Shown here: in pieces, positions 39,470 through 52,974 of the stretch | Layout: each line of letters starts with the position of its first letter | Position numbering within the stretch: the stretch's first letter is position 1 | Assembly: GCA_902514665.1 (NCBI GenBank) | Contig: CABXRS010000004.1 | Location: 1-64,000, forward strand | Reading direction: 5' to 3' | Source: an uncultured Pelagibacteraceae bacterium | GTDB taxonomy: Bacteria; Pseudomonadota; Alphaproteobacteria; Pelagibacterales; Pelagibacteraceae | DNA: 64,000 nt | Program-made: the position numbers and the translations under genes | The notes under the pieces: generated by a model | The model's input: only the letters and a program-made list of their open reading frames with translations | What the model was told of the DNA's origin: nothing | Database searches by the model: none

Positions 39470-40189
39470 ACTAAATTTCTTTCTTTTACTTATTATTTGA
39501 TTTAATTTTGAGATATTCATTGTTTGATTTAAAGGTAGTCGTACTTTTTTATTAACTCTAGCTTTTATTATTTCAGGATTATATTTCTTTGCAAATGTAT
39601 AAACTGATCTAGATTTTCCTCCTACATTAATGATACCTTTTTCATTAATTAATAAAGGTAAAATTTTAGCAATTTCTTCTTGAAATATAAAATTAGTTCT
39701 TAAATCAGAAAATGCCTTCTTATAAGGAAAAGGTTTTTCTGTCATTGTTATCCTGAGGATTAGTGAGTTTTTATACATTGCTACAGCACATTCCCCACCA
39801 AGTTTTGATAAACCATAATTATTAAAAGGTTTAACTGGGTCTGTTTCAGAATAATTTCCTTTTTTGCCTTCATAGACATAACCTGTGGAAAAATAAATTA
39901 ATTTTATTTTATATTTTTCACAAATCTTGACCACATTAGATGTTCCAATAATATTTAGATCTATGCTCTTCTGAATATTTTTTTCATGTATGTTCATCGG
40001 TCTAGATAGGCCTGCACAATGAATAATTATTTTGGGTTTAATTTTTTTTATTATTTTTTGCAATGATTTTAAATTCAAAATATTGCATTCACTTTTAGTT
40101 GCAAAATAAAAATTTAAATTCTTACTATAATTTTTTAATTTCTTACAGAACCTACTTTCACCACCAGTTACTAATATTGCTTTATTCAT
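39464..40189 (-). CDS. rfbD: dTDP-4-dehydrorhamnose reductase-like (RmlD substrate-binding family)
   Basis: AILVTGGESRF N-terminus; YFSTGYVYEGKKGNYSETDPVKPFNNYGLSKLGGE; follows rfbC/A/B. Confidence 0.85.
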   Translation of the reverse strand: MNKAILVTGGESRFCKKLKNYSKNLNFYFATKSECNILNLKSLQKIIKKIKPKIIIHCAGLSRPMNIHEKNIQKSIDLNIIGTSNVVKICEKYKIKLIYFSTGYVYEGKKGNYSETDPVKPFNNYGLSKLGGECAVAMYKNSLILRITMTEKPFPYKKAFSDLRTNFIFQEEIAKILPLLINEKGIINVGGKSRSVYTFAKKYNPEIIKARVNKKVRLPLNQTMNISKLNQIISKRKKFSW

Positions 40190-40713
40190 AATTTTCTTTT
40201 TAAAAACTCTGAAAACAACATTGCATTTCTATCTTTTTTTGAAAGGATCTGTCTATTTAATGGCCATTTAATTTTCAAAATTTCATCATTACAATTAATT
40301 GATAATTCACTTTTTTCATTTCTATATTTTGTACAACTATAAATTACATAATTATCTTTATCTAAAGCCTGAAAACCGTGAGCAAAGCCAGGCGGTATGA
40401 ATATCGACGTATAGTTTGCCTCACTTAACACACATCCAAAATATTTACCAAATGATTTTGAGTTAAATCTTAGGTCTACAGCCACGTCATAAATTTTTCC
40501 CTTAACTACACTAACAAACTTTCCTTGTGAATCTTTTGTTTGTAAGTGTAGACCTCTTATTACATTTTTTTTTGAATATGACATGACTTGAAAAGGAAAT
40601 TTATTATTAATCTTATTTTCTCTAATAAGTTCCTCAAAATATCCTCTCTTATCTTTAAATCTATTATGTTTGTATAAAAATAAATCTTTGAAATTCTTTT
40701 TTAAAATTTTCAC
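40186..40713 (-). CDS. rfbC: dTDP-4-dehydrorhamnose 3,5-epimerase
   Basis: HNRFKDKRGYFEEL...VIRGLHLQ...VVKGKIYDVAVDLR...FIPPGFAHGFQAL. Confidence 0.95.
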   Translation of the reverse strand: MKILKKNFKDLFLYKHNRFKDKRGYFEELIRENKINNKFPFQVMSYSKKNVIRGLHLQTKDSQGKFVSVVKGKIYDVAVDLRFNSKSFGKYFGCVLSEANYTSIFIPPGFAHGFQALDKDNYVIYSCTKYRNEKSELSINCNDEILKIKWPLNRQILSKKDRNAMLFSEFLKRKL

Positions 40714-41576
40714 GAAATTATCTTTTTTAAATATTCTGCATAGTTACATCTGCCATAAAACTCTATTGATTTTTTAATATCTTTTTTTTGTATCCATTTG
40801 TTATTTAAAGATATTTCCTCTAAACATGCTATTTTAAAGCCTTGCTGGTTTTCAATTGCTGAGACAAAGTTACTGGTTTTATAAAAATCCTCTATTGATC
40901 CTGTATCTAGCCAAGCTCCACCTCTTCCAATAAGCTCAGCTGATAAGCTGTTTTCCTTCCTATATTCATTCAAAAGGTCAACAATCTCAAGCTCTTTTCT
41001 TCTGGATGGTTTAAGTTTTTTTGCATACTCAATTACTTTGTTATCAAAATAATAAAGTCCAGTAATTGCTAAATTAGAGATGAGCTTTTTTGGTTTTTCA
41101 ACAATTTTTTTGATTTTTTTATCCTCAACAACTGCAACACCAAAATTTTCTGGATTTGTAACTCTATGTAAAACTACTTTAGCACCAGACTCTATTTTTA
41201 CACAATCCTGCAACATTTTTGATAATGACTGACCGTAAAAAAAGTTATCACCAAGTATCATTGCAACTTTATCTTTTTTTATAAATTTTTTTCCCAAAAT
41301 GAACGCATCAGGCAAACCTTTTGGCTTACTTTGTTCTTTATAAGTAATTTTCATACCTAGTCTTTTGCCATCTGGAATAATTTTCTTATATTGATTCAAT
41401 TGACCTTTGTTTACAATAATTAGAATTTCTCTTATTTTAGAAAGCATCAATATAGATAATGGATAAAATATTAATGGTTTGTCATAGATTGGTAGAAGCT
41501 GTTTGTTCACAGCTTTAGTTAATGGGCTCATTCTAGTTCCAATGCCACCAGATAAAATAATTCCTTTTTTAATCAT
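40710..41576 (-). CDS. rfbA: Glucose-1-phosphate thymidylyltransferase
   Basis: KGIILSGGIGTRMSPLTKAVNKQLLPIYDKPLIFYPLS; AWLDTGSIEDF. Confidence 0.96.
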   Translation of the reverse strand: MIKKGIILSGGIGTRMSPLTKAVNKQLLPIYDKPLIFYPLSILMLSKIREILIIVNKGQLNQYKKIIPDGKRLGMKITYKEQSKPKGLPDAFILGKKFIKKDKVAMILGDNFFYGQSLSKMLQDCVKIESGAKVVLHRVTNPENFGVAVVEDKKIKKIVEKPKKLISNLAITGLYYFDNKVIEYAKKLKPSRRKELEIVDLLNEYRKENSLSAELIGRGGAWLDTGSIEDFYKTSNFVSAIENQQGFKIACLEEISLNNKWIQKKDIKKSIEFYGRCNYAEYLKKIIS

Positions 41577-42586
41577 TAGTTACCCAATCTTTTAGTTATA
41601 TCTTTTTTGGAAAGCATTTTATAATAAGCTTTATTTGTTATATACCAATCAAAAGTTAATTTAATCCCTTCTTTAAAAGAAATTTTAGGTTTCCATTTTA
41701 AATTTTTTTTGATTTTGTTGCTATTTAAAGCATACCTTATGTCATGACCAGGTCTATCCTTAACAAAATTTATTTTAACATTCTTTCCTAAACTCAAAAA
41801 TTTTTTCGAAGCACTAATAATCCTGTTAGTTACGTCAATATTTTTTAAATTTTTGTTAGAACCAATATTATAAAACTCTCCAATTTTACCTTTTTTAAAA
41901 ATTTTATACAAAGCCTCACAATGATCCTTAACATATATCCACTCACGAGAATTTTCACCTTTTCCATATATAGGTAATGGCCTATTATTAATAATGTTGT
42001 AAATTAATTTTGGAATTAGTTTTTCAGGATGTTGCCTAGGACCATAATTATTTGAACAATTTGTAACTATTGCTGGTAATTTAAAAGTTTTAATGTAAGA
42101 ACTAACCAAATGATCCGAAGCTGCTTTACTTGCAGCATAAGGTGAACTTGGGTTGTAAGGATAACTTTCTGATGATCTACCTGATAAAATGTCTCCATAA
42201 ACCTCATCTGTTGAAATATGAATTAACCTAGATTTAAATTTTGACGAAAAATTCTTAAAATGCCTTAGTAAATTATATACTCCAACAATATTACTTTGAA
42301 TAAAATTTTCTGGATTATCAATTGATCTATCCACATGTGTTTCAGCAGCTAAGTTAAATACACATAAAGGTCTATATTTAAAAAGGAGTTTATTAAATTT
42401 TTTACTTTTTATGTCACATTTAATAAATTTATATTTTTTTGAGTTTTTAAATTCTCTAGTATTATAAAAATTTGATGAATAAGTAATTTTATCAATATTA
42501 ATAACAAAAAAGTTTTTTTTTATTAAAAAATCTATAAGATTGCTTCCTATAAAACCTAAACCACCAGTAACAATTATTTTTTTCAT
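41576..42586 (-). CDS. rfbB: dTDP-glucose 4,6-dehydratase
   Basis: GGLGFIGSNLIDFL; AAETHVDRSIDNP; STDEVYGD; SSPYAASKAASDHLV; NNYGPRQHPEKLIP. Confidence 0.96.
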   Translation of the reverse strand: MKKIIVTGGLGFIGSNLIDFLIKKNFFVINIDKITYSSNFYNTREFKNSKKYKFIKCDIKSKKFNKLLFKYRPLCVFNLAAETHVDRSIDNPENFIQSNIVGVYNLLRHFKNFSSKFKSRLIHISTDEVYGDILSGRSSESYPYNPSSPYAASKAASDHLVSSYIKTFKLPAIVTNCSNNYGPRQHPEKLIPKLIYNIINNRPLPIYGKGENSREWIYVKDHCEALYKIFKKGKIGEFYNIGSNKNLKNIDVTNRIISASKKFLSLGKNVKINFVKDRPGHDIRYALNSNKIKKNLKWKPKISFKEGIKLTFDWYITNKAYYKMLSKKDITKRLGN

Positions 42587-47316: not shown

Positions 47317-47993
47317 TGGATTTTGATTTAATGTTCACTAGTCTTCCTAAACTTTTAAGTGCAACTGTTGTGACACTAAAATTATTATCTGCATCATTGT
47401 TATTTGGGTTAATCATTGGGCTTTTATTTGCAATATTGCGATTAAATAAAAATATTTTTATTAATAAATTTGCTTATGGGTATTCTTATGTTTTTAGAGG
47501 AACTCCTTTATTAGTTCAAATTTTCATCATTTATTTTGGATTAGGCCAAATTGAATACTTAAGATCAACATTTTTATGGGTTATTTTAAAAGAGCCTTAT
47601 TGGTGTGCAATTATAGCTTTCACTCTAAATACAGGTGCTTATACATCCGAAATATTAAGATCTGCATTTCAAACAATTAAACCTGGAATTATAGAAGCTG
47701 GTAAAAGCCTAGGGATACCAAATAAAATTATTTTTTATAAAATACAAATACCTATTGCTATTAGACAATCTCTTCCAGCTTATGGAAATGAAATAATTTT
47801 AATGATGAAAGGGACTTCATTAGCAAGTACTGTTACCTTAATGGATTTAACTGGTGTTGCCAAATATATTATTTCAACAACTTTTAAACCAATAGAGGTA
47901 TTCATTGTTGCGGGTGGAATTTATTTATTTATGACTTTTATTATCCATAACGTTATAAAATATTTAGAAAAAAAATATAGTTTTTATTCTTAA
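47316..47993 (+). CDS. ABC amino-acid permease (HisM family)
   Basis: YVFRGTPLLVQIFIIYFG...NTGAYTSEILRSAFQTIKPGIIEAGKSLG. Confidence 0.92.
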   Translation: MDFDLMFTSLPKLLSATVVTLKLLSASLLFGLIIGLLFAILRLNKNIFINKFAYGYSYVFRGTPLLVQIFIIYFGLGQIEYLRSTFLWVILKEPYWCAIIAFTLNTGAYTSEILRSAFQTIKPGIIEAGKSLGIPNKIIFYKIQIPIAIRQSLPAYGNEIILMMKGTSLASTVTLMDLTGVAKYIISTTFKPIEVFIVAGGIYLFMTFIIHNVIKYLEKKYSFYS

Positions 47994-48003
47994 AGATAAA
48001 CAA

Positions 48004-48966
48004 ATGCAAAATTGGATAGTTAAATTAACTTTTTTAAAAAAAGTATTAATAATTTTGGTTGTGATTACTTATCCAATTTTATTTTTTGAATATAAAATAT
48101 TCCCATATCAACAAATAAAAATTTTTAAAAATAACCATATTGATATTTATTTAAAACATAGATTTTATATTAAAGAAACAACAAAATGTTCTCTTCAAAA
48201 AAATTATTTTAAAAATGAAAATAAAAAAACATACACCTTTTTTATTGCGGGGCATACGTACGGTGTGCCTCATAAAAAAAAAGATTTAAGCCTATATAAA
48301 AATTTTTATAAAATTATTTCAAAAAATAGCAAATATGATTTTGGAATTTTTGCGGGGGATTTTGTTCAAGATGCAAATAATGAAGCCTGGAGTGCAGTCG
48401 ACAAACAAATAGAAAAAATTGGTCATAAAATATATCTTGTTGCAGGCAATCATGACTTTGATAAGAAAGATGGTTTATATGAGAAAAGGTATGGAAGATC
48501 ATATTATTACTTTAGAAATCAAAAAGATCTTTTTATCGTATTAAACTCTACACAAGATAAATTAAATATAATTGACGATCAATTAAAGTTTTTAAGAGAA
48601 ACTATTAAAAAACAAAAATTTAATAATCTTTTTATAATTTCACATCACATGATTTGGATGTTTAATAAAGAGATATTTAATTCTAACGAAGATGAGAGAT
48701 TAAATTTTACTTCAGCTTATCTTCCTAAAAATTTCAAAACAAACTTTTGGGATGATATTGCGCCTTTATTGTTAGAATTAAAAAATAATGTTTATTTAAT
48801 ATCTGGGAATATTGGACAATTTCCTAATCATAGATCCATATATTGTAGTAATTACAAAAATATAAAATTTTTAAGCACCGGTATGGGTGGAGGTAAATAT
48901 GATAATTTTATCATCTTCAAAAATAATAAAAAAGGTAAATTAAAAATAGACTTTAAGTTTTTTTGA
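48004..48966 (+). CDS. Membrane-anchored metallophosphoesterase
   Basis: N-terminal TM; GIFAGDFVQD, LVAGNHDFD and ISHHMIW metal-binding motifs. Confidence 0.82.
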   Translation: MQNWIVKLTFLKKVLIILVVITYPILFFEYKIFPYQQIKIFKNNHIDIYLKHRFYIKETTKCSLQKNYFKNENKKTYTFFIAGHTYGVPHKKKDLSLYKNFYKIISKNSKYDFGIFAGDFVQDANNEAWSAVDKQIEKIGHKIYLVAGNHDFDKKDGLYEKRYGRSYYYFRNQKDLFIVLNSTQDKLNIIDDQLKFLRETIKKQKFNNLFIISHHMIWMFNKEIFNSNEDERLNFTSAYLPKNFKTNFWDDIAPLLLELKNNVYLISGNIGQFPNHRSIYCSNYKNIKFLSTGMGGGKYDNFIIFKNNKKGKLKIDFKFF

Positions 48967-48981
48967 TAATAAGTTTGAAAA

Positions 48982-49635
48982 ATGGATTTTATATCTAATG
49001 AAGCAAACAATAATCTTAAAGTTTTTATAGATGTAATATTTTTAATTTCTTCTGGTTTAATATTAAGGTTTTGTTTATCTTTGACTGGACAAAACTGGGT
49101 AAAAACTTATCAACAAACGGTAACTTTTTTAATTTTGCCAGTTACGACATATGTAATCGTTATAACAATAAGTGGAAATATAGCACTTTCATTGGGGATG
49201 GTAGGTGCACTATCAATTGTACGTTTTAGAAATCCAGTTAAAAGCGCATTAGAACTAGTAATGTTTTTTGTGCTTATAACGATTGGCATATCAGCTGGTG
49301 TAAAAATAAAATATTCAATACTTTTAGTCACGGTTTCTGTATTTATTATTATATCAATAAAATTAGGCCATTATATTTCTAAAAAAATAATTAAAAAATC
49401 TCTTTACAATGTATCTTTTAATGACGGCATTGAATTAAATACTATTGAAATTTCATCTAAATCAGTAATTGAAAGTATTGAAAATAACAAAAATATTAAA
49501 AATATAATTTACCTTAAGGAGGAAAAAATAATAATTTATAGATTATTATTTGAAAATGAAGAAGAACTTAAATTATTTAAAGAAGAAATTAGATCAAATA
49601 ATGAGATTAATAAAATTGACATAAACTATGTGTAA
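48982..49635 (+). CDS. DUF4956 membrane protein
   Basis: SLGMVGALSIVRFRNPVKSALELVMFFVLITIGIS is the DUF4956 signature. Confidence 0.88.
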   Translation: MDFISNEANNNLKVFIDVIFLISSGLILRFCLSLTGQNWVKTYQQTVTFLILPVTTYVIVITISGNIALSLGMVGALSIVRFRNPVKSALELVMFFVLITIGISAGVKIKYSILLVTVSVFIIISIKLGHYISKKIIKKSLYNVSFNDGIELNTIEISSKSVIESIENNKNIKNIIYLKEEKIIIYRLLFENEEELKLFKEEIRSNNEINKIDINYV

Positions 49636-51982
49636 AAAAAAATGTTGTATAATTTTAGTAATTTTAAATTTTTTATTTTCCAACTTTGCTTACTCTGCTA
49701 TCGAGCCTTTTTGTAATAAAAATCTGAACCAAAATGAGATTAGTTCTATTTATTCATCAAAGCCATCGAAAATAAACATAAAGATTTCAGATTATAGACT
49801 TTGGAGTATAAACAATTTACAAATCTTATCTGATACGCGTGAATATCCATCCCGCGATATAATTTCAGAAAAAAATAAAAAAAGATTTAAATCTAAAATA
49901 GAGGTTGTCTTTCCAAATAATATAAAGTGTAAATTTAATTCAATAATTAGACAAAGCGGTGATTGGAAGGATCACATTTACATGTCACGAGGTAAAATTC
50001 TTCAAAGCGTAGACATAAAATTAATTGATGGAAATATTAATGGTATTACTAGATTTAAATTGCTAATTCCTAAGACTAGAAAAAACCCTGAACAAGAACT
50101 ATTATTTACAAAAATTCTAACTAGCTTAAATTTTTTAGCCCCAAGAACTTTTTTTGTAAATGTAAATCTTAATAATACTAATACAAGAATGTTATTTCAG
50201 GAAAAAATAAATAAAGAAATGTTGGAATTTAATAAAAGAGTAGAAGGCCCTATTTTAGAAGGTGATGAGAGATATATGTGGTCGTATGTCAAAGAAAATA
50301 GCAAATATTTAAATTCTTCAATTACAAATCAGCTTGCAAGACAAACTAATTCCAAATGGTCAATGAAAAGTAAAAACCATCTAATTATTGCAAATGAAGC
50401 ATTGACTAATCTAAATATAATTTACTTAAACTTTATTAATAATATTCAAAATTATACTACTAAAACTATTAATAGCGCCCATTATGACTTAGATAATTTT
50501 TTGTTAGGAAACAAAAAAAAAGAAACCTTTTCAAATTTCGAGTCTTTTGATATTTTAATGTACTCCGTGGGAGCAACACATGGTTTAGCTCCACATAACA
50601 GAAAATTTTATTGGAATTCTATAAAAAATAGTTTTGAGCCTATATATTATGATGGAGATATTTCAATTTTTGGAGCTGGTCATTACATACATGCACATTT
50701 AAGTAATCATTCTCATTTTAGTAGAAAACTTAATTTAAGTGATATTAAAATAATTAAGTCAAAATTTATGAATTTAGACAAAAGTTTATTATTTAGTGAG
50801 CTTAAAAAATCAGGTAGCGAGTTAACGAACTTTGAATTTAAAAATTTATTAAAAAAAATTGAGTCTAATATTGAAGAAATTATTACATTAAACCGATCTA
50901 GTAATTCATCTACAAATAAACCAACTTCAAACATTTTTTTAAATTATGTAAAAAATTTATCTAAGACAAAAACAGGTTACAATAGTATTAAAGTCGTTTT
51001 TAAAAATAAAAGTTATTTTTTAGTTTGTAATTTAAATCAAAATTTGAAATTCAATTTAATTGAACAATGTAAAAACGAAAAATTCGAGAATAATGAAATA
51101 AGAGATTTGTTAGAAGGTAGACTGGTTAAAAACAATGATATATTTCAATATATTGGGGATAAATCGATACTTGAGGAAGTGATTAATAATAAAGAAATTA
51201 CAAAAAAAAATTATAAAGAGTATAACTTTATAAAAATTGATAACTCAAAATTCTTTTATAATAAAGGTATAAGAATAGATTATTCAAATGAAGAAAAAAT
51301 TTTAAATATTTATCAAGAATATCCAGAGTCAAGGGCATATTTTTTAGACGGAAAAATTAAAGATTTTAAAATTAATTTTTATGGTTATGAAAGAAAATTA
51401 AATGAAATCGATACTCTTCTAAGTTTTCCTTTTGATCAAAATCAACTAACCGGTTGTCTAACTTTTTTAAATATAAATTTAGAAAACGTTAAAATGTATG
51501 CTGAAGGAGGTAATTGCGAAGACACATTGAATTTAATTAAATCTAGTGGTGAAATTAATACAATTTTTATTAAAGAAGCTCTTCAAGATGGATTGGATGT
51601 AGATTTTTCAAATTTAATAATTAATAATATTCTTATTAATGATGCTGGTAATGATTGTGCAGATTTTTCATGGGGCAATTACAAAATAATAAAAGCAAAG
51701 GTTGAAAAATGTGGTGACAAAGGATTTTCTATTGGTGAAAAATCTGAAGCTTACATTAAAGATCTAAATGTATCAAAAACATCCATTGGAATTTCTTCGA
51801 AAGATGGGTCAGTGACAAATTTAGATAATGCAATGATGAAAAACACTGAAACATGTTTAGAGGTAAAAAGAAAGAAACAAGAATTTTATGGTGGCACAAT
51901 TAATATAAAAGAACATAATTGTGAAAAAAAAAAAATTTACACTGAAAAAGGTTCATTTATAAATTTTAAAAATGTCTTATAG
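49628..51982 (+). CDS. Secreted CotH-kinase-like protein with C-terminal beta-helix-like repeats
   Basis: Signal peptide; IRQSGDWKDH, SAHYDLDNFLL and PIYYDGDISIFGAG CotH-like motifs; repetitive C-terminus with regularly spaced beta-like turns. Confidence 0.75.
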   Translation: MCKKKCCIILVILNFLFSNFAYSAIEPFCNKNLNQNEISSIYSSKPSKINIKISDYRLWSINNLQILSDTREYPSRDIISEKNKKRFKSKIEVVFPNNIKCKFNSIIRQSGDWKDHIYMSRGKILQSVDIKLIDGNINGITRFKLLIPKTRKNPEQELLFTKILTSLNFLAPRTFFVNVNLNNTNTRMLFQEKINKEMLEFNKRVEGPILEGDERYMWSYVKENSKYLNSSITNQLARQTNSKWSMKSKNHLIIANEALTNLNIIYLNFINNIQNYTTKTINSAHYDLDNFLLGNKKKETFSNFESFDILMYSVGATHGLAPHNRKFYWNSIKNSFEPIYYDGDISIFGAGHYIHAHLSNHSHFSRKLNLSDIKIIKSKFMNLDKSLLFSELKKSGSELTNFEFKNLLKKIESNIEEIITLNRSSNSSTNKPTSNIFLNYVKNLSKTKTGYNSIKVVFKNKSYFLVCNLNQNLKFNLIEQCKNEKFENNEIRDLLEGRLVKNNDIFQYIGDKSILEEVINNKEITKKNYKEYNFIKIDNSKFFYNKGIRIDYSNEEKILNIYQEYPESRAYFLDGKIKDFKINFYGYERKLNEIDTLLSFPFDQNQLTGCLTFLNINLENVKMYAEGGNCEDTLNLIKSSGEINTIFIKEALQDGLDVDFSNLIINNILINDAGNDCADFSWGNYKIIKAKVEKCGDKGFSIGEKSEAYIKDLNVSKTSIGISSKDGSVTNLDNAMMKNTETCLEVKRKKQEFYGGTINIKEHNCEKKKIYTEKGSFINFKNVL

Positions 51983-52556
51983 AACAGAAGAAAAAATTAC
52001 TATTAATTTTTCAATGCTAACTGAGTTTAAAAATTCTTTATTTTTAAAAGGTGCTGAAATATTATTTCCTAAAAGAAAAATCAAAAGTTTATATCTTGAT
52101 AATTTTAATTATCAAATGTATAGAGATTCTATTGAGGGATCTCTTCCAAGAAAAAAAATACGTATAAGAAGTTATAATAATGGAAAATATTTTCATGAGG
52201 TTAAAATATCAAGTACAGAAGGAAGATTCAAAACAAGCAAAGAAATTAAAGAGGAAAAAAATTTAGAAATAAACAAAATTGGATTATTTGATAAAATGTA
52301 TGGTCCTTGCAAACCTGTTTTACTTGTAGAATATGAAAGAGAATATTTCAAATTTAAAGATTTTAGAGTCACTATTGATAATAAAATAAATTATTTTTCT
52401 TATTACAATAAATTTTTAGGTTTAGAAAAACATCCTGTAATTGAATTAAAAGCTTCTATTGATAAGAGTTTAAATGAGTTAATGATCGATTTTCCATATC
52501 CAAGGACTAGATTTTCAAAATACTCTAATGGAATTGAAAAATTATTAATTCAATAA
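51972..52556 (+). CDS. VTC-domain (polyphosphate polymerase-like/CYTH-like) protein
   Basis: SLYLDNFNYQMYRDSIEGSLPRKKIRIRSYNNG..FHEVKISSTEGRFKTSKEI. Confidence 0.82.
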   Translation: MSYRTEEKITINFSMLTEFKNSLFLKGAEILFPKRKIKSLYLDNFNYQMYRDSIEGSLPRKKIRIRSYNNGKYFHEVKISSTEGRFKTSKEIKEEKNLEINKIGLFDKMYGPCKPVLLVEYEREYFKFKDFRVTIDNKINYFSYYNKFLGLEKHPVIELKASIDKSLNELMIDFPYPRTRFSKYSNGIEKLLIQ

Positions 52557-52584: not shown

Positions 52585-52974
52585 TTAATAATTTGTATAT
52601 TCTTTAATTTCCTTAATTATTGAACCTGTATACTTATTTATTTCTAATTTAATTTTAGCCCTATTATCATTTAAAAAATGCACATCTCTTGAAAGTCTTA
52701 TAAAATTATCTCCAAAATCTTTATCTTTTTCACATTTTCTTTTATCATCTTCAATAATCCAGAGTTTTGCATTTATTTCTTTAAGAGATTGAAAAAGTTT
52801 ATTAAGTTTATCGTCTGACTTAATGTTATTTTTCATTTGATTTTTTAAAATAGAATGTTCTTTAAAAATAAATTTAAGTTTTTCAGGATCTTTGATTTTT
52901 TCTTGTTTGATTTCTAAAATCGAAATTTTGTCCAAAAGTTCACCTATGGAGATCTCTACTATAATTTTATTCAT
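52585..52974 (-). CDS. DUF6165-like protein
   Basis: VEISIGELLDKISILEIKQEKIKDPEKL...LWIIEDDKRKCEKDKDFGDNFIRLSRDVHFLNDNRAKIK. Confidence 0.75.
   Translation of the reverse strand: MNKIIVEISIGELLDKISILEIKQEKIKDPEKLKFIFKEHSILKNQMKNNIKSDDKLNKLFQSLKEINAKLWIIEDDKRKCEKDKDFGDNFIRLSRDVHFLNDNRAKIKLEINKYTGSIIKEIKEYTNY

Follow-up and report, generated by a model that had tools for sequence, protein, structure and literature searches.

A DUF4956–CotH-like/beta-helix–VTC gene trio in a Pelagibacteraceae genome and in other bacteria: a conserved mobile unit with a possible role at the cell envelope

What might a compact group of genes for a phosphoesterase, a DUF4956 membrane protein, a secreted CotH-like protein and a VTC-domain protein do in a marine bacterium? 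The genes lie in a 64,000-nucleotide stretch (hereafter, the window) of a Pelagibacteraceae (SAR11) genome; SAR11 bacteria are among the most abundant bacterial groups of the ocean and have small genomes. An earlier note on this DNA had proposed a four-gene operon led by the phosphoesterase. We found all four ORFs on the + strand where that note had placed them (Table 1), with a 15-nt gap between the phosphoesterase and DUF4956 genes and overlaps of 8 nt (DUF4956/CotH-like) and 11 nt (CotH-like/VTC), and its Metallophos (PF00149, 35.7 bits), DUF4956 (PF16316, 39.8 bits) and VTC (76.7 bits) assignments all scored above their own Pfam cut-offs (21.5, 30.6 and 23, respectively). However, the phosphoesterase need not head the operon, because an ABC-transporter permease gene ends at position 47993, 10 nt upstream from its start, and no terminator-like site was found on the + strand between the two genes. 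A promoter scan at the locus gave a score no better than those of shuffled sequences. The literature yielded no functional assignment for precisely this operon.

Table 1. Positions of the genes, domains and key codons of the locus in the window
Feature	Coordinates	Strand	Length or residues	Evidence and remarks
Calcineurin-like phosphoesterase	48004..48966	+	320 aa	Membrane-anchored, optional fourth gene; Pfam Metallophos E 1.6e-8
DUF4956 membrane protein	48982..49635	+	217 aa	Pfam DUF4956 E 5.1e-10; AlphaFold pLDDT 89.5
Secreted two-domain CotH-like/beta-helix protein	49628..51982	+	784 aa	AlphaFold pLDDT 89, pTM 0.89; PDB profile; Foldseek
CotH-fold (protein-kinase-like) domain	49769..50917	+	approx. 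residues 48-430	PDB profile, AlphaFold, Foldseek
H318 codon, at the place of the catalytic Asp (D228, B. subtilis CotH)	50579..50581	+		Alignment
D342 codon, equivalent of D251, B. subtilis CotH	50651..50653	+		Alignment
Pectin-lyase-like beta-helix domain	51443..51937	+		Alignment, AlphaFold, Foldseek, Pfam
VTC-type triphosphate-tunnel domain protein	51972..52556	+	194 aa	Pfam VTC E 2.6e-21; PDB Vtc4 E 7.9e-15

The co-occurrence of DUF4956, VTC and CotH genes in other bacteria, which the earlier note had stated, was borne out by a neighbourhood survey, in which DUF4956–CotH-like/beta-helix–VTC synteny was observed at about 100 loci from four phyla. Beyond SAR11, the trio was present in SAR116, SAR86, Roseobacter relatives, Prochlorococcus, Actinomarina and Flavobacteria. 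Among 297 Pelagibacterales genomes, 36 carried the CotH-like gene and 42 (about one in seven) the DUF4956 gene; both were present in 33, and each was found alone in only 3 and 9 genomes, respectively (Fisher 4e-32), such that 33/42 of the DUF4956 carriers also had the CotH-like gene. The scan of named genomes was carried out with an 11-row CotH-like alignment, as the alignment of all 33 CotH-like rows gave no conserved stretch. The trio is thus a real, mobile unit, far from a chance assemblage, and the cassette would move horizontally between genomes. A viral origin was considered and found to be unsupported: the only viral contig to match did so at its host-like end, where a MutS-like gene comes after VTC–DUF4956.

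The phosphoesterase is not part of this conserved unit. The same survey, which compared loci with and without this gene, showed the trio to be recurrent but the phosphoesterase to be missing from nearly all SAR11 trios, and in the closest sister genome it has been deleted, with its last codons remaining and the trio retained. It could therefore be a passenger from a sugar/ABC-transporter neighbourhood, unlinked to the trio. We consider this unlikely, since all six phosphoesterase matches among 1117 non-trio ORFs, which came from Alphaproteobacteria and Actinomycetota matches alike, were no more than two genes away from a trio (P 2e-4) and, in the 297 Pelagibacterales genomes, both strong matches were directly upstream of a trio, with one weak match elsewhere. 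The subfamily is almost confined to trio surroundings. The metal-site consensus of calcineurin-like enzymes comprises DxH, GD, GNH, H and GHxH motifs; here, motif I reads AGHTYG in place of DxH and motif V reads GNIG in place of GHxH, and the subfamily alignment has GH without the Asp in motif I and G[DN]xG in motif V, with the GD, GNHD and HH motifs kept. Judging from these motifs, the full classical metal site is absent and the protein belongs to a divergent subfamily. The proposal that it acts as the reversing enzyme of the system fits poorly with an optional, deleted gene and altered metal-site motifs; the membrane-anchored protein may instead be an optional periplasmic accessory.

The gene trio itself has already been described, in Gram-positive Pel loci, where cotH–PPP–DUF4956(–DUF4832) occur as accessory genes (PMC7112168), as in SIR_1592-1594 of Streptococcus intermedius (PMC12345266); the trios published from there lack this beta-helix. 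In S. intermedius, deletion of the DUF4956 or CotH homologue decreased aggregation by more than 50% in sputum medium and altered Pel levels, and the deletions reported to lower aggregation did not include that of the VTC homologue (PMC12345266). The two systems share adjacent genes for a secreted CotH-like protein, a VTC-type polymerase and a DUF4956 protein with an apparently ACT-like C-terminus, in an exopolysaccharide setting. However, the SAR11 CotH protein has a beta-helix instead of FN3 and a His at the catalytic Asp, and the window genes are not contiguous with pelDEADAFG, no pel genes being found among the scanned flanking genes. Moreover, synteny was not found outside Pel loci in the S. 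intermedius study (PMC12345266), whereas the trio is widespread outside Pel loci in our survey. VTC-domain and CotH genes also share a locus with a glycosyltransferase in Clostridium perfringens (NELoc-2), but the adjoining membrane proteins are annotated there as tubulin/FtsZ and no beta-helix fusion is described (PMC2879425).

Residues R64, R66 and E158 of the VTC protein aligned with R264, R266 and E426 of yeast Vtc4 and were invariant in the VTC alignment; Vtc4 carrying R264A/R266A/E426N is inactive (PMC9911596). Because these catalytic residues are conserved, we infer that a cytoplasmic VTC-type enzyme may polymerise phosphate from ATP into polyphosphate. As in the yeast VTC complex (Vtc1/3/4), the tunnel domain has a membrane-protein partner, but this partner is the DUF4956 protein, and the SAR11 polypeptide is a single VTC domain, to which neither an SPX domain nor a transmembrane region is fused. 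Triphosphate-tunnel enzymes form a diverse group, and so short a domain, devoid of the SPX and membrane-spanning regions that yeast VTC has, might belong to a triphosphatase or cyclase making a signal rather than to a polyphosphate polymerase; this is distinctly improbable, given that the best Pfam and PDB matches were Vtc4/VTC subunits, that the catalytic equivalents are conserved and that DUF4956–VTC pairs are associated with PHO4. PPK1 was missing from 10 of the 15 trio-bearing SAR11 genomes, some of which are 99-100% complete; the presence of PPK1 in the other five rules out VTC as a universal stand-in for absent PPK1.

The DUF4956 protein has transmembrane helices (residues ~2-136) followed by a putative ACT/Lrp-like alpha/beta domain (~150-215), for which the Foldseek matches were weak (best E 1.4e-3). 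All 53 relatives matched PF16316, and no MgtC Pfam match was found in the DUF4956 proteins. In three alphaproteobacterial loci, the DUF4956–VTC pair adjoins a PHO4 phosphate transporter gene, without CotH. DUF4956 would be an obligate membrane partner of VTC that regulates or transports its product, and we propose, by analogy, that the two are coupled across the membrane. DUF4956–VTC is a core module, and the third gene is swappable: an Asp-type CotH, a His-type CotH/beta-helix protein or a phosphate transporter.

The CotH-like protein was only partly as the earlier note had described it: the fold and the signal peptide stood (the protein also has conserved cysteines), but no Pfam CotH (PF08757) match was obtained for the 784-aa protein or in a search of its own genome, and the catalytic Asp is replaced by His. 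A Pfam CotH match at E<=0.1 was found in 9/33 relatives. Kinship with CotH was recovered only with the family profile (PDB 5jd9, E 5.4e-18) and the predicted fold (Foldseek 5jda, E 6.5e-9). Compared profile to profile, trio CotH matched Bacteroidota CotH only weakly and in part, and HMMER profile searches were therefore used. The position equivalent to D228 was His in 58/59 trio proteins and Asp in none (with an alignment gap of 1-2 residues nearby), whereas canonical CotH proteins placed on the same profile had Asp there in nearly all cases. D342, equivalent to the second residue needed for B. subtilis CotH activity, was Asp in 59/59 trio relatives; it was also recorded as lost in three members (L047, L049 and L053), in which all the beta-helix invariants are retained. 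The protein shares the protein-kinase-like fold and the D251-equivalent Asp with the spore-coat kinase CotH of B. subtilis and B. cereus (5jd9, 5jda), but differs from it in the His at D228, the extra beta-helix, the lack of a Pfam CotH match and secretion by a Gram-negative bacterium. As far as the alignments can tell, this is a subfamily of the CotH fold that lacks the catalytic Asp and is fused to one specific beta-helix.

The C-terminal beta-helix-like region noted earlier was confirmed in the AlphaFold model as a right-handed, pectin-lyase-like beta-helix. Fourteen residues (D632, D654, D657, D659, D676, D679, D697, K698, S701, G703, E704, K725, D726 and K749) were conserved in 33/33 and 59/59 proteins (K698 in 58/59), and they lie on a 22-residue ladder, with polar residues at stacked coil positions. 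Some members matched the Pfam Beta_helix, GH28 and PL3 profiles and the fold matched PL3 pectate lyases in Foldseek; since the beta-helix profile had no significant match in the PDB (E 0.24 or worse), it is the fold and the Pfam matches that connect it to PL3/GH28. PL3 enzymes and GH28 polygalacturonases likewise have a right-handed beta-helix with polar residues clustered on stacked coils, but the conserved set differs (Asp ladder, DK, KD and E in the trio protein). In broader scans, every strong beta-helix match outside SAR11 was inside a trio. No other part of the protein is as constrained as the beta-helix, which looks like an active site rather than the mere target- or glycan-binding module that had been suggested.

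The scanned flanks in the window contain ABC transporter, spermidine synthase, heptosyltransferase-like and other glycosyltransferase genes, and immediate trio neighbours include epimerase, GDP-mannose dehydratase and glycosyltransferase genes; SAR11 islands are rich in sugar genes anyway. The earlier suggestion of an envelope phosphotransfer, polyphosphate or phospho-glycan system is consistent with these neighbours, the VTC residues, the signal peptide and the PHO4 link, but the phosphotransfer part is weakened by the loss of the CotH catalytic Asp; that note had made its reading depend on the catalytic residues of both proteins, and those of VTC are present but the CotH Asp equivalent to D228 is not. 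We tentatively favour an envelope cassette in which VTC would make polyphosphate in the cytoplasm, with DUF4956 as its membrane partner, and the product of this pair would feed or control an exported CotH-fold/beta-helix enzyme, which would act in the periplasm to modify a polysaccharide that is exported or part of the surface. Of the two halves of this enzyme, the beta-helix would be the catalytically important one, and the CotH fold would serve in binding or in phosphotransfer of a non-canonical kind.

An ordinary secreted CotH protein kinase, acting on envelope proteins selected by the beta-helix and reversed by the phosphoesterase, as first proposed, could draw on the CotH fold, the second essential Asp and the enrichment of the phosphoesterase beside the trio. 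The periplasm, however, is not known to contain ATP, and this together with the conserved His argues against the CotH-fold half being an ordinary ATP kinase. Ordinary ATP-dependent activity is doubtful because the Asp equivalent to D228 is absent, and the D228Q substitution inactivates B. subtilis CotH (PMC7821199). With the phosphoesterase usually missing and the beta-helix conserved in the manner of an active site, we regard this explanation as very improbable. Less improbable, but still rather unlikely, is that the CotH-fold half, as a dead kinase, serves only as scaffold in a polysaccharide lyase- or hydrolase-like beta-helix enzyme, and that DUF4956–VTC is a separate phosphate-status switch timing the making or remodelling of the coat, with no polyphosphate leaving the cytoplasm. 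The catalytic Asp is indeed never present, D342 is lost in three members with an intact set of beta-helix invariants, DUF4956–VTC occurs with PHO4 in the absence of CotH, and DUF4956 has a putative ACT-like sensor domain; yet such strong conservation of the His and D342 would be unusual for a dead domain, and the CotH-fold and beta-helix were fused in every complete member seen. An ATP-free system, in which polyphosphate from VTC is exported through DUF4956 as the periplasmic phosphate donor of a His-type CotH-fold enzyme phosphorylating a polysaccharide held by the beta-helix at the surface, would also be conceivable, but appears improbable.

If the envelope-cassette model holds, the cassette would tie phosphate metabolism to the surface of the cell, the site of attack by phages and predators. 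With this cassette, the role of the DUF4956–VTC–CotH trio becomes directly testable.

The conserved unit is a set of three genes, encoding DUF4956, a CotH-like protein and a VTC protein. Among 297 Pelagibacterales genomes, the CotH-like gene was found in 36, DUF4956 in 42 and both in 33 (Fisher 4e-32); the three genomes with only the former comprise two contig-end cases and one marginal match. The trio lies side by side almost throughout the 34 SAR11 and 77 named loci compared, in a sometimes altered order, and its carriers include SAR116, SAR86, Roseobacter relatives, Prochlorococcus MIT 9201, Actinomarina and Flavobacteriales. These groups are intermixed in the CotH-like tree (Prochlorococcus with Actinomycetota, Flavobacteriales with SAR116; strong support for each), which points to horizontal spread of the trio between planktonic groups. 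In the most divergent SAR11 trios (L056, L058 and L060), a gene of ~340 aa separates DUF4956 from the CotH-like gene, and at loci L082 and L129 DUF4956 is immediately preceded by an additional CotH-like gene that is shorter (about 535 aa), while another CotH-like protein encoded there is enlarged (about 1000 aa).

The window forms part of contig C4 of a genome of 970,700 bases (81% complete), the closest named relative being the Pelagibacteraceae single-cell genome AG-457-K11 (81% protein identity across the CotH-like gene). The ORF check placed the four ORFs, proposed as an operon in the earlier note, exactly where that note had them. Metallophos, DUF4956 and VTC each exceeded their own Pfam cut-offs, and the 784-aa protein did not match Pfam CotH. 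The gene for an ABC-transporter permease stops 10 nt short of the phosphoesterase start. The stretch scanned for terminators holds a single terminator-like site, far upstream and on the opposite strand, so transcription of the cassette may begin upstream of the phosphoesterase. A heptosyltransferase-like gene is also found downstream.

Coordinates of the cassette and of related features
Feature	Sequence	Position	Strand	Remark
dTDP-rhamnose pathway genes (rmlC-, rmlA-, rmlB-like) and GT2 gene	window	40189-42586		few kilobases upstream of cassette
Phosphoesterase	window	48004-48966	+	320 aa
DUF4956	window	48982-49635	+	
CotH-like/β-helix protein	window	49628-51982	+	784 aa
VTC	window	51972-52556	+	194 aa
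DUF6165 gene	window	52585-52974	-	downstream, convergent with cassette; weak DUF4254 match
Last phosphoesterase codons	L067	8304-8357		directly before DUF4956
VTC-DUF4956 pair, then MutS-like gene	L144	8116-9471		host-like end of IMG/VR viral contig

The phosphoesterase is optional, yet not randomly placed. Strong matches in the 297 Pelagibacterales genomes were restricted to the window and genome G198, directly upstream of the trio in both; all six matches in the named loci were at most two genes from it (P 2e-4). Relatives adjoin trios in L057, L101, L103, L106, L120, L124 and L143, and a fragment lies close to the trio in L195. The sister locus L067 lacks the gene but retains its last codons (KLKIDIEFF-stop versus KLKIDFKFF-stop in the window), a remnant that is best explained as the scar of a deletion. 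In the alignment, GD, GNH and the His after it are retained in this subfamily, with GHxYG replacing DxH and G[DN]xG replacing GHxH, and its chemistry may therefore differ from that of textbook enzymes.

The AlphaFold model of the 784-aa protein (mean pLDDT 89, pTM 0.89) has an N-terminal half resembling Bacillus cereus CotH (E 6.5e-9), and the family profile also retrieved CotH (E 5.4e-18). In the family-profile alignment, H318 corresponds to the catalytic D228 of B. subtilis CotH, for which D228Q is inactive (PMC7821199). Among trio relatives, 58 of 59 carry His at this position, as do 29 of 33 proteins of a wider set, and none has Asp; nearly all Asp-type CotH proteins from Bacteroidota aligned on the same profile have Asp. 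The counterpart of D251, the other Asp essential in CotH, is D342, conserved in 59/59. Three members that retain every β-helix invariant have lost D342.

The C-terminal half resembles PL3 pectate lyases and tailspike-type β-helices, and members match Beta_helix, GH28 and PL3 profiles; the PDB profile search with the β-helix yielded insignificant matches only. Its invariant residues follow a 22-residue ladder (D632-D654-D676-K698 and N635-D657-D679-S701), with D659, S681, G703, E704, K725, D726 and K749 in addition, and D654-D659, D679 and K698-G703 occupy equivalent strands of successive coils in the model. This set differs from those of both PL3 and GH28 enzymes, and we read it as a putative active or tight ligand site. 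A β-helix profile search of 349 Pseudomonadota and 99 Bacteroidota genomes gave eight strong matches besides the window, all with His at the D228 position; DUF4956 and a CotH-fold domain are found at every one of these loci, as is VTC except in a contig-end case. Asp-type CotH proteins without this β-helix adjoin DUF4956 and/or VTC in L176, L180 and L208. Both types occur in flavobacterial G299, with four DUF4956 copies, and in proteobacterial G437, which has a His-type β-helix trio (L198) and an Asp-type lamin-tail trio (L208). The His-type/β-helix proteins form a distinct subfamily, and trios are thus of at least two kinds.

The VTC family profile matched yeast Vtc4 in the PDB (E 7.9e-15), with R64, R66 and E158 invariant and equivalent to R264, R266 and E426, whose triple mutant is inactive (PMC9911596). 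PPK1 is absent from 10 of 15 trio-bearing SAR11 genomes, some of them 99-100% complete, and accompanies VTC in the other five; VTC could therefore be the only known polyphosphate polymerase of these 10. In the DUF4956 model, an ACT/Lrp-like domain comes after transmembrane helices, the layout of Streptococcus intermedius SIR_1592 (PMC12345266). In two alphaproteobacterial genomes (G483 and G499), the DUF4956–VTC pair, its DUF4956 identified by Pfam, adjoins a PHO4 inorganic phosphate transporter at L204, L205 and L206, where no CotH was seen beside it. The association lends support to a phosphate-related role of these two genes, and it shows the third gene of the cassette to be exchangeable. 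The L144 pair, with no CotH nearby, is probably host flank.

A CotH–PPP–DUF4956 set lies beside Gram-positive pel operons (PMC7112168), and deletion of S. intermedius SIR_1592 or SIR_1594 (CotH) lowered aggregation in sputum medium by more than half and changed Pel levels; the authors of that study reported no such synteny outside Pel loci (PMC12345266). VTC and CotH genes share Clostridium perfringens NELoc-2 with a glycosyltransferase (PMC2879425), and a zetaproteobacterial stalk cluster includes a CotH domain (PMC8250860). None of the papers searched described the marine variant of His type with the β-helix. Epimerase, GDP-mannose dehydratase and glycosyltransferase genes occur among trio neighbours (presence, not enrichment). 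We favour a phosphate-linked surface-polysaccharide system, in which polyphosphate would be made by VTC inside the cell and coupled to the membrane by DUF4956, and the exported CotH-fold/β-helix protein would modify a glycan, with the β-helix as key site. Polyphosphate crossing the membrane and phosphate transfer by the His-type CotH domain are hypothetical; the boldest reading, compatible with the data, is that exported polyphosphate would be the phosphate donor in the ATP-free periplasm.
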